Assembly (NCBI GenBank): GCA_947589495.1
Contig: CANQAK010000005.1
Coordinates: 1 to 56,601 of the forward strand
Direction of reading: 5' to 3'
From: an uncultured Bacilli bacterium
GTDB lineage: Bacteria > Bacillota_I > Bacilli_A > RF39 > UBA660
DNA: 56,601 bases
The notes under the pieces are model-generated. The model ran no database searches. It was given only the letters and a program-made list of their open reading frames with translations, and was not told the DNA's origin. This document shows, in pieces, positions 14,094 to 18,385 of the stretch. The stretch's first letter is position 1. Every line of letters begins with the position of its first letter. The position numbers and the translations under genes were made by a program.

Positions 14094-14170
14094 AAAAGGG
14101 AGGTCGTTACTTCTCCCAGGGTTAAGTTAAGTCTATTTTTACGTCTTCGTTGACGATTTTTTTATTTGTT
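14094..14170 (-). repeat. Conserved 3' two-hairpin element, copy A
   Basis: A stretch of about 76 bp just after the stop codon of the surface protein gene, nearly identical to 15799-15874. A run of 33 bp beginning GGGAGGTCG is identical, loops included. Hairpin 1 is GGGAG (14098-14102) / CTCCC (14113-14117); hairpin 2 is CGTC (14142-14145) / GACG (14152-14155). Read on the minus strand, hairpin 1 is followed by TTTT, so it may terminate transcription. Identity of loops and spacer goes beyond what a terminator needs. It could be a recognition structure for retrohoming or simply a recently duplicated end. Confidence 0.8.
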
Positions 14171-15410
14171 ATGAAACGATGTAAAATGGAGTTCCTATTT
14201 CTCCTGTACCTTCGAGTACCACATCGGACTTCAGATAGAAGACCGGGCGGATAGCATATCCAAGGCTTAAATTGCTGTAGTCAACGGCTCCACTTGGGCC
14301 CACCCACCACGCAGAGAAGGCAGCAGTCCCGGCAGCGTTGTTTCGACCCATACGAGTCATGGTCCATTCGAATCGCTCATCTGTAGATGTTTCTCCTCCA
14401 TTATTACTCATATGTATCCAACTTGTTTTACATTGTGCAGCATCTTGCCTACAACTCGATTCTGATCCTGTTCCACTTAATGCATATGCATAATCATGTA
14501 TATACATTAATCCTATTGGTTTTGATTCTGTCTTTTTTTCCCATTTTTTATCTGTTACTTCTTTTCCAGTTATTGGATCAATATATTTTGTATTTGCTTG
14601 ACCTGTTTCTATTTTATATACTGTCTCTGTTGGTATATTTGAATTTATATAACCATAACTTATATCTCCATATAACCATTGTTGTGGTTCTATTTTATTT
14701 TGTATACTACTATCTAATGTATTATAGTATGTATTATTTAATGTGCTAAATATTGTACTTTCTGGCCACTCTTTGTTTGTTGAATAATTATCCCACCATT
14801 GATGTGTACTTTCATATCTTGTTTGTTTTATTACTTTGATATTTCCTTCTTCTGTTATTCCTATGATTCGATACATGTTTTCATCTGTTCCACTACTAGT
14901 TGCATTACATCCATTTAGTCCCACTTCATTCAAACATATATAATTTTTTACTTTATTTCCTTTTAATTCATCTACACCTTGGTAACGGTACATTCCTCCA
15001 ATTGGTTCATCACTTAAACTTTCATCATTTGTTCTTGAATCTATTAATTCTTGTGGATTCTCTGGTGTTTTTTTATCAAAATATAAATAACAGTATGATG
15101 TTTTATTTGTACTTACTGTTATTTTATCACTTTCATATGTTAAACTATTTTCTATTTTTTCTCCATTATTATCCATACATCCTGACTTTTCTGTATTTAA
15201 CTTATAATCATTTCCTGGAAATATTGATTGTTCTTTATATTCTCCATCTTCCCCTTTTACCATAATAGCAAACATATTATTTTTTTCAACATCTTTTAAG
15301 CTAACTGTATCCAATGTTGCATTTACCGATTTATTCTTGCTTATAAAAACTATACTTGTTGTTAATAATAATATTAGAATTAATAATGTAATAGTTATTT
15401 TCTTATTCAT
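14169..15410 (-). CDS. Membrane-anchored surface protein with C-terminal variable segment (cassette A)
   Basis: About 413 residues. The start at 15410 fits AGGATGG upstream and aligns with the paralogue's start; an ATG at 15422 is possible. An N-terminal signal or anchor helix (residues about 3-23) ends at KNKSVNATLDTVSL, shared with the paralogue at 15881. One large domain follows, with the modules GGMYRYQG, YICL..G.NGC, MYRIIGITEEGNIKV and IGLMYIHDYAYA, and a closing RPVFYLKSDVVLEGTG. Paired cysteines suggest disulfides and export. Residues about 351-393 are encoded by a GC-rich island (variable segment). The gene is divergent from an XRE repressor. The family is unnamed to me; the function may be binding of changing ligands. 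Confidence 0.75.
   Translation of the reverse strand: MNKKITITLLILILLLTTSIVFISKNKSVNATLDTVSLKDVEKNNMFAIMVKGEDGEYKEQSIFPGNDYKLNTEKSGCMDNNGEKIENSLTYESDKITVSTNKTSYCYLYFDKKTPENPQELIDSRTNDESLSDEPIGGMYRYQGVDELKGNKVKNYICLNEVGLNGCNATSSGTDENMYRIIGITEEGNIKVIKQTRYESTHQWWDNYSTNKEWPESTIFSTLNNTYYNTLDSSIQNKIEPQQWLYGDISYGYINSNIPTETVYKIETGQANTKYIDPITGKEVTDKKWEKKTESKPIGLMYIHDYAYALSGTGSESSCRQDAAQCKTSWIHMSNNGGETSTDERFEWTMTRMGRNNAAGTAAFSAWWVGPSGAVDYSNLSLGYAIRPVFYLKSDVVLEGTGEIGTPFYIVS
14232..14360 (-). other. Candidate DGR-type variable region, cassette A
   Basis: 129 bp running from the MTR codons to RPVFYL. By hand count 72 of 129 bases are G or C (56%), against a strongly AT-rich surround. The codon run after the arginine of MGR consists almost only of codons ending in C or T (AAC AAC GCT GCC, then ACT GCT GCC TTC TCT), with GGG as the one exception. 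Compared with the two segments in the other protein there is one extra codon, and some third positions differ, so this copy is older or uses another template. Assignment as a retroelement variable region is inference. Confidence 0.55.
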
Positions 15411-15534: not shown

Positions 15535-15762
15535 ATGAATAGATTAAAAGAGATTCGAGAAGACAAAGATTTATTTCAAAAAGATATAGCAGAATATCTA
15601 AATGTTGATCAATCTAATTACAGTAAATATGAATTAGAAAAAATTAACATTCCCATTTCTATACTTATAAAATTAGCAGATTTTTATAATACAAGTGTTG
15701 ATTATTTAGTATATAGAACTGATGATAGAAAACCTTATCCTAAAAGTAAATTATCTAAATGA
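15535..15762 (+). CDS. Small XRE/Cro-CI type repressor (cassette A)
   Basis: A 75-residue one-domain DNA-binding protein. The helix-turn-helix spans about residues 4-60 (LKEIREDKDLFQKDIAEYLNVD, then SNYSKYELEK). The tail RKPYPKSKLSK is shared with the repressor of cassette B (RKPYPKSKLMK). It is divergent from the variable surface protein gene, with three 19-bp operators in the 124-bp gap, so it very likely represses that gene and itself. The small size without an effector domain recalls phage Cro or lysogeny-type repressors. A strong terminator follows the stop. Confidence 0.88.
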   Translation: MNRLKEIREDKDLFQKDIAEYLNVDQSNYSKYELEKINIPISILIKLADFYNTSVDYLVYRTDDRKPYPKSKLSK

Positions 15763-15798: not shown

Positions 15799-15874
15799 AA
15801 AAGGGAGGTCGTTACTTCTCCCAGGGTTAAGTTAAATCTATTTTAACGTCTTCGTTGACGAGTTTTTATTTGTT
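15799..15874 (-). repeat. Conserved 3' two-hairpin element, copy B
   Basis: Second copy of the element at 14094-14170, in the same orientation and at the same place, a few bases after the stop of the surface protein gene. GGGAG / CTCCC and CGTC / GACG hairpins are conserved with their loops. The two direct copies are 1.7 kb apart, so recombination between them could remove or exchange cassette A's repressor together with surface gene sequence. Confidence 0.8.
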
Positions 15875-15880
15875 TTATTA

Positions 15881-18028
15881 TCAATTTGCTATGTAGAATG
15901 GTTCTAACGTTGTTCCTTTTCCTTTTAATTTAATATCATTTGTTAGATAGAAGACGGGACGAACAGCAACCTTACGTTCTAAGGTGCTGGTGTCGACACG
16001 ACCGTCTACATACACAAACCACGCATCGAAGAAATTAAGGGAGTCATTACGCCGACCCACACGCGACATGGTCCATTCATAATCTGATGTATTTCCATTT
16101 TGGTACATATGCATCCAGCCACTATCTCTACATTTATTATATGAATCTGCTCCTTTAGAATTATGGCAACCATCTTGGTTTGCTTGATAATAATAATCAT
16201 GTAAGTACATTAATCCTATATTGGCTTCTTTTGTATTTGTCCATTTCTCTCCTGTTACTTCTTTCTTATCAGATGTTGTTGGTCCATAGTATTTGGTATT
16301 CATGTCTCCACTTTCTACTTGATATATTTGATTTGCTGTTAATGTTCCTACAAAATTATAATGCATATCTCCATAATACCAGTTCCATTTTTGTATTTTT
16401 CCTTGTATTTCACTATCTAGTGTTTTATAAAATGTTTCATTTAAAGTTGTATATACATCACTTCGAGGCCATTCTGGACATCCACTACTTCCACAATAAG
16501 AATCATCATAACGTCCGCTCCATGCATATGTACTTGTTCCGTTGTTCGTAAATTTTGTTTGCTTTATTACTTTGATATTTCCTTCTGGAGTTATTCCTAT
16601 GATTCGGTACATATTGTCATCATAACCATTATTTTTTGCATCACATCCATTTGTTCCTACTTCTTTTAAGCATATATAGTTTTTTACTTTATTTTCTTTT
16701 AATTCATCTGCTCCTTGGTAACGGTACATTCCTCCAACTAAAGTTTTACTTAACGCATCTGTAGTATCTTCTAATCTTAATGTATTTTCTTGATCTGTTG
16801 GTATTACTTCTGTTAATGTATATGGATCTTCTACTGTTCCACTTCCATATAATGTTATATTACTTTTTAAATAGAATACTGGGCGAAGCGCAATAGCACC
16901 TACCAAGGAGCCGTTGGTGATTTCACCGTCCGTATCCACATACCATCTCCAGAAGAGAACAGAGTTATAATTACCCCGACCAACACGCGTCATGGTCTGT
17001 TCTCTTGCCTCATTTCCAGATGTTGTTATTCCATTATTTTTTATGTGCATCCAACCATTATCTTTACATTTTTGATACGAATCTTTTCCTTTTGCATAAT
17101 GACAACCATCTTCGTTTGCTTGATAATAGTAATCATGTAAATATATTAATCCTATATTAGCTTTTTCATTCATTTGAGTCCAGCTTTCATTTGTTACTTC
17201 TGCTGTATTACTTGATTTATGTCCATAGTATTTTGTATTTTTTGCTCCTGTTTCTACTTGGTATATTTCATTTGCACTTAATGTCCCTACAAAATCATAA
17301 TGCATATCTCCATACCACCAGTTTTGTGGTTCTATTTTATTTTTTATTTCTTCATTTAATGAATTGTAAAATGTGGTATTTAATGTTGTATATAATTCAC
17401 TTTCTGGCCATTCTGGACAACCATCTGTTCCACATGTTGAATCGCTATCATTTGAGTTCCATGCATAATTTCCTATACTTGTTTGTTTCATGACTTTTAT
17501 ATTTCCATTCTCTGTGATTCCTATAATCCTATACATTTCATCACTTTGACTTGAACATTTTCCTTCGAAACATAAATAGTTATCTACATCTGGTCCTTGG
17601 TAACGATACATACCTCCTACAGGATTAATACTTAATCCACTGCTCTTTTTTAATTGTTCTATTAATTCTTTTGCATTATTCTTATCAAAATATAAATAAC
17701 AATATGATGTTTTATTTGTAGTAAGAGTTACTTTGTTACTATCTGAATCATATGTTAAGCTGTTTTCTATTTTTTCTCCATTATTATCCATACATCCAGA
17801 TAATTTTTCATTATAGAAATAATCTTCAGGCCATTCATTAGAGTTACTTACTTCATATTCTCCACTATCATTTTGAAGCATTATTGCAAACATATTATTT
17901 TTTTCTACTTCTTTTAAACTAACTGTATCTAATGTTGCATTTACCGATTTATTTTTTCTTATAAAAACTATACTTGTTGTTAATATTAATAATAAAATTA
18001 TTGTTGTAATAAATATTTTCTTTTTCAT
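15881..18028 (-). CDS. Membrane-anchored surface protein with duplicated domain and two variable segments (cassette B)
   Basis: About 715 residues from the ATG at 18028, which has GGAAAG upstream; an earlier in-frame start would run through the operators and is rejected. After an N-terminal anchor helix and the segment SVNATLDTVSL shared with the cassette A protein, a domain of roughly 270-300 residues occurs twice. Each copy has GGMYRYQG, MYRIIGIT.EGNIKV, WYYGDMHY or similar, IGLMYLHDYYYQAN and a closing RPVFYL. Each copy ends in a GC-rich variable segment (residues about 346-387 and 654-695). Only the terminal one is followed by the conserved 3' element. Likely exported and displayed; the ligand is unknown. 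Confidence 0.78.
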   Translation of the reverse strand: MKKKIFITTIILLLILTTSIVFIRKNKSVNATLDTVSLKEVEKNNMFAIMLQNDSGEYEVSNSNEWPEDYFYNEKLSGCMDNNGEKIENSLTYDSDSNKVTLTTNKTSYCYLYFDKNNAKELIEQLKKSSGLSINPVGGMYRYQGPDVDNYLCFEGKCSSQSDEMYRIIGITENGNIKVMKQTSIGNYAWNSNDSDSTCGTDGCPEWPESELYTTLNTTFYNSLNEEIKNKIEPQNWWYGDMHYDFVGTLSANEIYQVETGAKNTKYYGHKSSNTAEVTNESWTQMNEKANIGLIYLHDYYYQANEDGCHYAKGKDSYQKCKDNGWMHIKNNGITTSGNEAREQTMTRVGRGNYNSVLFWRWYVDTDGEITNGSLVGAIALRPVFYLKSNITLYGSGTVEDPYTLTEVIPTDQENTLRLEDTTDALSKTLVGGMYRYQGADELKENKVKNYICLKEVGTNGCDAKNNGYDDNMYRIIGITPEGNIKVIKQTKFTNNGTSTYAWSGRYDDSYCGSSGCPEWPRSDVYTTLNETFYKTLDSEIQGKIQKWNWYYGDMHYNFVGTLTANQIYQVESGDMNTKYYGPTTSDKKEVTGEKWTNTKEANIGLMYLHDYYYQANQDGCHNSKGADSYNKCRDSGWMHMYQNGNTSDYEWTMSRVGRRNDSLNFFDAWFVYVDGRVDTSTLERKVAVRPVFYLTNDIKLKGKGTTLEPFYIAN
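15944..16069 (-). other. Candidate DGR-type variable region B2 (C-terminal)
   Basis: 126 bp, 63 G or C (50%). It aligns without gaps to B1 (16868-16993). After CGG the codons are CGT AAT GAC TCC CTT AAT then TTC TTC GAT, all ending in C or T, as expected if a template of AAY codons had its adenines randomised. It lies about 60 bp before the stop and the conserved 3' element, the usual position of a retroelement variable region. Confidence 0.6.
16868..16993 (-). other. Candidate DGR-type variable region B1 (internal)
   Basis: 126 bp, 60 G or C (48%). After CGG the codons are GGT AAT TAT AAC TCT GTT then CTC TTC. Over codons 7-29 I count 15 first-position, 10 second-position and 5 third-position differences from B2, the reverse of purifying selection. 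It lies in mid-protein, far from a 3' element, so it may be a duplicated, no longer active copy or be served by homology alone. Confidence 0.58.
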
Positions 18029-18151: not shown

Positions 18152-18385
18152 ATGAATATTAATAGAATAAAAGAAATAAGAGAAGATAGAGATCTATATC
18201 AAAAAGATGTTGCTAATGCTTTAAAAATAAAACAACAACAATACTCAGAGTATGAAATAGGTAAAAGGCTAATTCCAATTAATTATTTAAGTGATTTAGC
18301 TGATTTTTATGATGTATCAATAGATTACTTATTAGGTAAAACTGATGAAAGAAAGCCTTATCCAAAAAGTAAATTAATGAAATAA
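18152..18385 (+). CDS. Small XRE/Cro-CI type repressor (cassette B)
   Basis: A 77-residue protein from the ATG at 18152, which has AAAGGTGA upstream. The helix-turn-helix covers residues about 4-60 (IKEIREDRDLYQKDVANALKIK, QQYSEYEIGKR), then the family motif VDYLLGKTDERKPYPKSK. It is a paralogue of the cassette A repressor, but the recognition helix differs, which matches the different operator sequence (ATACAA against TAGGTAA). It should repress the divergent variable surface protein gene and itself. A terminator follows and converges with the ABC exporter operon. Confidence 0.88.
   Translation: MNINRIKEIREDRDLYQKDVANALKIKQQQYSEYEIGKRLIPINYLSDLADFYDVSIDYLLGKTDERKPYPKSKLMK

Follow-up and report, generated by a model that had tools for sequence, protein, structure and literature searches.

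Most described diversity-generating retroelements (DGRs) have one or few targets beside the reverse transcriptase (RT). Their cassettes hold up to 4 variable regions (VRs; PMC3521204). In Bordetella phage BPP-1, the RT, Avd, and a template (TR) act on one target by adenine-directed change, and the VR lies beside a conserved 3' end, followed after 4-34 bp by a GC-rich hairpin with a GRNA loop; this hairpin was shown for phage-related DGRs, and chromosomal DGRs mostly have one (PMC3240598). More extended target sets are described for several bacteria. The Treponema denticola DGR (TvpA family) has 2-7 targets of the FGE-sulfatase type, which persist in strains without the RT (PMC4891356). Trichodesmium erythraeum has 18 loci with TR/VR homology and two RTs, and at least 11 of the loci vary in metagenomes (PMC8867640); for cyanobacterial DGRs, 76 remote targets were counted across 21 genomes (PMC7517822). 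Thiohalocapsa PB-PSB1 holds nine DGR loci with 15 targets and 21 VRs (PMC10907252), and in Faecalibacterium prophage DGRs the VR lies at the C-terminus of a DUF6273 domain (PMC11792537). According to one survey, a single Pseudomonas record contains as many as 91 TR-VR pairs, with 21 of the VRs in the same ORF (PMC6642488); we regard this record as probably a repetitive adhesin and not a comparable case. Remote targets are missed by surveys of short contigs (PMC8144416).

The stretch of DNA analyzed here (hereafter the window; 56,601 nucleotides) is contig C5 of the 1.11-Mb draft genome of a gut bacterium (51 contigs, 88% complete, reported contamination 0). Two segments in one of its genes had been flagged as candidate VRs. 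We consider it very probable (roughly 93%) that they are two remote VRs of a cellular DGR whose cassette is found elsewhere in this genome, on a different contig, with one RT and one TR for 54 such patches. The system is of a known kind, with an unusually large repertoire. As in T. denticola, one RT and one TR in a host-associated bacterium go with remote paralogous targets scattered over the chromosome, but the targets here are ~42 DUF6273-like genes, often with two VR units (PMC4891356). Dispersal of remote targets as paralogues is shared with T. erythraeum and other cyanobacteria, where the targets are mostly cytosolic signalling proteins and not, as here, surface-type proteins (PMC8867640, PMC7517822). 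Thiohalocapsa PB-PSB1 is likewise multi-target and multi-VR, with trans rewriting deduced from a perfect non-adenine match, but it has nine loci and immune-sensor targets in place of one RT and surface-type targets (PMC10907252). The viral fold matches of the VR unit include DUF6273 proteins, as for the Faecalibacterium prophage targets; unlike those phage-borne DGRs with one or two VRs, neither the RT nor the target had relatives in the viral contigs searched (PMC11792537). RT, Avd, TR, adenine-directed change, and a VR beside a conserved 3' end are common to this system and BPP-1, which differs in its single target and in a hairpin that was not found here (PMC3240598). Among the openly readable papers searched, none described a larger single-RT repertoire; the highest counts there were 7 targets, 18 loci, and 21 VRs.

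Variable regions in the window and the cassette on contig C7

The features on which the comparison is built are as follows.

14142..14155, minus strand: repeat CGTCAACGAAGACG, exact copy, downstream of the 417-aa gene's stop codon
14169..15422, minus strand: second target gene by translation, a 417-aa paralogue with a single VR unit; matches DUF6273 at E=9.6e-5, slightly short of the Pfam cut-off
14244..14357, minus strand: VR_C, 114 nt (one extra codon), in the 417-aa gene; 24/37 template adenines and 25/74 other sites changed, p=0.002
15847..15860, minus strand: repeat CGTCAACGAAGACG, exact copy, downstream of the 715-aa gene's stop codon
15881..18028, minus strand: flagged target gene by translation, encoding 715 aa; hydrophobic segment at the N-terminus, two VR units in tandem; paralogues across the genome, unit pLDDT 93
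15956..16066, minus strand: VR_B, C-terminal, 111 nt; 26/37 template adenines and 13/74 other sites changed, p=7e-8
16880..16990, minus strand: VR_A, internal, 111 nt; 27/37 template adenines and 19/74 other sites changed, p=2e-6
L001 199-309 (contig C7): TR, 111 bp, adenine-rich, reading SRIGRNSSSSTNFNAWNVNSNGNVNNNNLNNTNAVRP; ~1 kb upstream of the RT and outside the target gene

The original prediction aligned 16868-16993 with 15944-16069 (minus strand) without a gap over 42 codons and counted 15, 10, and 5 differences at the first, second, and third positions of codons 7-29. Both the alignment and the counts were reproduced exactly, and the four codon pairs quoted with them (AAC/TCC, TCT/CTT, GTT/AAT, ACC/GAC) are all real; over the full 42 codons the differences number 21, 12, and 12. 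The GC richness attributed to replaced adenines is real too (47.6% and 50.0% in the two segments vs. 29% in the rest of the ORF), but replacement is only part of its cause, because the template already has 44% GC (~61% if every A were randomized). Each of the two tandem units ends in a G-R...R-P-V-F-Y-L segment. The proposed location just before the protein end holds for the second segment, with 21 residues after the motif, but not for the first: the 715-aa protein contains two VR units in tandem, which makes this segment internal. A third homologous segment, VR_C in the neighboring gene, had been overlooked.

The search of the genome for an RT and a template, which the same prediction had proposed as its check, led to an RT with IGNMTSQ and YMDD, an Avd homolog, and the adenine-rich template; together with the adenine-biased divergence of the flagged pair, they support its DGR interpretation. 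The RT is the only RT match in the window's genome. It is 375 aa long, matches PF00078, and has as its closest solved relative by sequence 8ub7, the Bordetella phage DGR RT. Its motifs read LPIGNMTSQ and YMDD, and DGR RTs are defined by (I/V/L)GxxxSQ and YxDD (PMC3521204). Directly upstream is the Avd homolog (bAvd 7.6e-6 and DivGenRetAVD 7.6e-9, both below curated cut-offs); a 128-aa ORF matching MutS domain I alone (L002:8763-9149, contig C7) also lies upstream with Avd, and an ORF of ~95 aa lies downstream. The order MutS-I, Avd, RT, 95-aa ORF recurs in >20 related loci, with the last ORF absent or unrecognized in some, and the presence of a mismatch-binding-like part beside an error-prone RT is suggestive. 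Near the cassette, a 685-aa protein (L002:1692-3749, minus strand) has a membrane segment followed by cysteine-containing repeats of the type CPxGYTKxGxGxxxKC. Rfam gave no match at the cassette and two sub-threshold, implausible matches on the window.

The TR is upstream of the MutS-I-like, Avd, and RT genes, where it occupies a separate short open frame. Thirty-four of its 37 adenines are at first or second codon positions; if the adenines were randomized, no TR codon could turn into a stop, and ~1.5e20 proteins would be reachable. A second TR was sought in the window's genome by DNA and protein searches, which gave only the copy on contig C7. The flagged VRs are on C5 and this TR is on C7, and it is the binning of a draft assembly that places both contigs in one genome.

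TR and VRs have the 3' end GCGGTTCGCCCAG in common and then part, with CCCACTATAAC in the TR and TATTCTAT or TCTTCTAT in the VRs. This stretch is a candidate for the initiation of mutagenic homing region of DGRs, a conserved 3' end of TR and VR with divergence directly after it. A GC-rich hairpin with a GRNA loop was not found close behind the VRs, where only short AT-rich or 5-6 bp stems occur within 70 bp; such a hairpin is not required for DGR membership. Ten exact copies of the repeat CGTCAACGAAGACG, followed by TTAAAATAG or TAAAAATAG, are present in the genome; nine follow target genes, and the tenth is at the cassette end. It marks the cassette 3' end both here (C7:14857) and in three related loci (L095:11382, L114:2882, and L123), and there it codes for the last residues of the ~95-aa ORF (IRQRRR). 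As a DGR hairpin the repeat was rejected: the youngest VRs are not followed by it, and it sits roughly 15-45 bp past the stop codon.

Small genes resembling helix-turn-helix regulators (15535-15762 and 18152-18385, plus strand) lie divergently upstream of both target genes of the window. Divergent XRE regulators were dismissed as a general partner of target genes, being upstream of only 3 of the 17 target genes checked.

Change at template adenines

In the proposed mechanism, the RT would make errors at adenines when it copies the RNA of the TR, and cDNA mutated in this way would replace a matching patch of ~111 bp, located where a surface-type protein unit with a DUF6273-like fold ends. Compared with the TR, the VR just before it has changes at 15/37 adenines and at 0/74 other sites; for the VR at C7:19251, the counts are 22/37 and 4/74. 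Over the ten youngest VRs, template adenines are read as A 177, G 91, T 56, and C 46 times. Among the 48 VRs that could be codon-aligned automatically, adenines changed more often than other sites in 47, with p<0.05 in 41; summed over first and second positions, 943/1623 A sites vs. 331/1911 non-A sites changed. Furthermore, in a paralog pair with 87% identical upstream DNA, the VRs differ at 24/37 A sites and 4/74 other sites.

A bias toward first and second positions could also arise with no retroelement, if selection diversified the exposed residues, whether or not gene conversion took part. Positive selection can act on the exposed loops of surface proteins, non-A differences occur in the older VRs too, and in old VRs part of the A-site excess could come from selection of this kind. 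The young VRs give clean evidence because they show almost no non-A change. Selection does not predict 15/37 vs. 0/74 relative to a noncoding adenine-rich copy beside an RT, nor the 0/63 non-A differences of remote VRs in another species (below). For the DGR system as a whole, selection alone is already refuted, and for the flagged VRs we regard it as highly improbable.

The flagged VRs also show an excess of change at template adenines far beyond chance. The original prediction had expected a template A at every site where the two segments differ; this is the case at 22/43 sites, but the other 21 are not template A, and the flagged VRs are thus not fresh copies of the present TR. Nor did this TR write them as they stand, because they carry 13 and 19 nonadenine differences. 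The flagged pair was last rewritten some time ago, or was written by an earlier or undetected template.

The latter could be a second template of the same RT, lost or missing from the draft assembly. Sister cassettes carry up to four TRs beside one RT, VR_A departs from the TR over a block of neighboring non-A sites, other VRs agree with one another in states that differ from the TR (sites 19, 22, 28, and 62, among others), and the assembly is only 88% complete. Against this, the protein and DNA searches of the assembly returned one TR only, and among the known TRs the best fit to VR_B is the one on C7: VR_B differs from it at 13/71 sites and from foreign TRs at 20-25 of 60-68. For young VRs of the window's genome, the corresponding values are 0/71 and 11-19 of 60-68; no TR fits VR_C better than another. 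We regard a second template for the flagged VRs as less likely than not.

A repertoire of probably differing ages

Under the DGR reading, one RT and one found TR would serve, or would have served, 54 patches in ~42 paralogous genes. This count comes from a protein search of the genome with the translated TR, which gave 55 further places, one of them weak. Twelve genes, including the flagged 715-aa gene, have two VRs each. By an estimate from ORF sizes, the target genes amount to ~60 kb, or 5-6% of the assembly, so that a host-associated bacterium with ~1.1 Mb of DNA gives ~60 kb to one diversifiable family. The genome of T. erythraeum is much larger.

The VRs are not equally close to the template. 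A near-perfect dozen, spread over nine contigs, departs from the TR at no more than 10/74 non-A sites, and the remaining VRs at up to 39/74; all VRs beyond this dozen, including the flagged pair, are older or from another template. Non-A differences at third positions range from 0/34 to 25/34 across VRs and thus provide a rough clock since the last rewriting, which puts VR_B (6/34) and VR_A (7/34) in the middle range and VR_C (18/34) among the old VRs. The GC content of VRs falls as this third-position change rises (rho -0.57, p=2e-4). Some non-A differences are common to many VRs, e.g., 25/38 have T in place of C at site 62, which suggests that the TR itself has probably changed. Rewriting would proceed via cDNA in trans, and the older VRs, the flagged pair among them, have probably not been rewritten since the TR last changed.

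Two target genes (C2:80038-81438 and C3:9803-11242) have an identical run of ~360 bp that ends inside their VRs, with far lower identity outside it, which points to recent recombination between paralogs. Their near-identical VRs (C2:80350 and C3:10808) were considered as proof of rewriting within the genome and found too weak, because the two differences, both at template A, lie at the edge of the longer shared run. In several target genes (C10:22528-22958, C7:34875-36127, and C1:84119-85352), the coding sequence is split over reading frames, and these may be pseudogenes, assembly errors, or switchable frames.

The flagged VRs could be fossils, that is, DGR products fixed long ago, exempt from further rewriting, and now subject to ordinary mutation, selection, and recombination between paralogs. 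Their non-A differences from the TR, the extent of third-position change in VR_C together with its lack of a preferred TR, the drop in GC with third-position change, and the long identical run through the VRs of two paralogs as a sign of recombination between copies would all fit such an origin, whereas VR_B is clearly closer to its own TR than to foreign TRs and its third-position change is moderate. We give this account of the flagged VRs somewhat less than an even chance. For the system at large, we lean slightly toward a single DGR acting as a genome-wide repertoire generator, in which one RT, with one or few templates that change in the course of time, would rewrite in trans a whole surface-protein superfamily occupying ~5-6% of a reduced genome. 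Its members would be refreshed at different times, so that the cell would hold a library of fresh and retired variants. If this is true, the repertoire is comparable in scale to antigenic-variation gene families. The third-position clock opens questions about which targets are refreshed, about template turnover, and about a role in attachment or evasion in the gut.

Target proteins and related genomes

The VR closes the unit and usually the protein. The AlphaFold2 model of the unit has pLDDT 93 and pTM 0.91, and its viral fold matches comprise several phage proteins named DUF6273 (best overall 1.9e-10). In the PDB fold search, a Thomasclavelia IgA peptidase was the only strong match (1.6e-6), and C-type lectins, whose fold is one of the marks of DGR targets, appeared at E>0.6 only. 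The predicted scaffold is thereby of a known DGR target type (DUF6273-like). From the N-terminal hydrophobic segment the target proteins are probably located at the surface, where they may bind ligands.

MAGs labeled Bacilli, from the guts of rabbits and goats, contain related cassettes. A search of genome contigs with the RT found no genome of the same species, and the best RT was 79% identical. In a sister genome (G032), four TRs lie upstream of one RT on contig C21, and two VRs lie on a different contig, its own C7. Compared with a particular local TR, one of these VRs differs at 20/36 A and 0/63 non-A sites (p=2e-11), and the other at 13/36 and 0/60; compared with the TR of the window's genome, they show 19/66 and 22/68 non-A differences. 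VRs thus track the template of the genome that carries them, and this is strong evidence for rewriting in trans after the two species split.

The genus is well suited to following this process, with the target domain in 38/38 genomes and an RT match in half of them (19/38). Genomes with an intact RT have a median of 24 target domains vs. 12 in those without (Mann-Whitney p=6e-4), medians that may be affected by draft completeness and by the use of a profile derived from proteins of the window's genome itself. In three relatives (G006, G016, and G018), the RT matches are interrupted or split, yet 9, 36, and 8 target domains are present; these genomes are natural cases for following VR aging after loss of the machinery.
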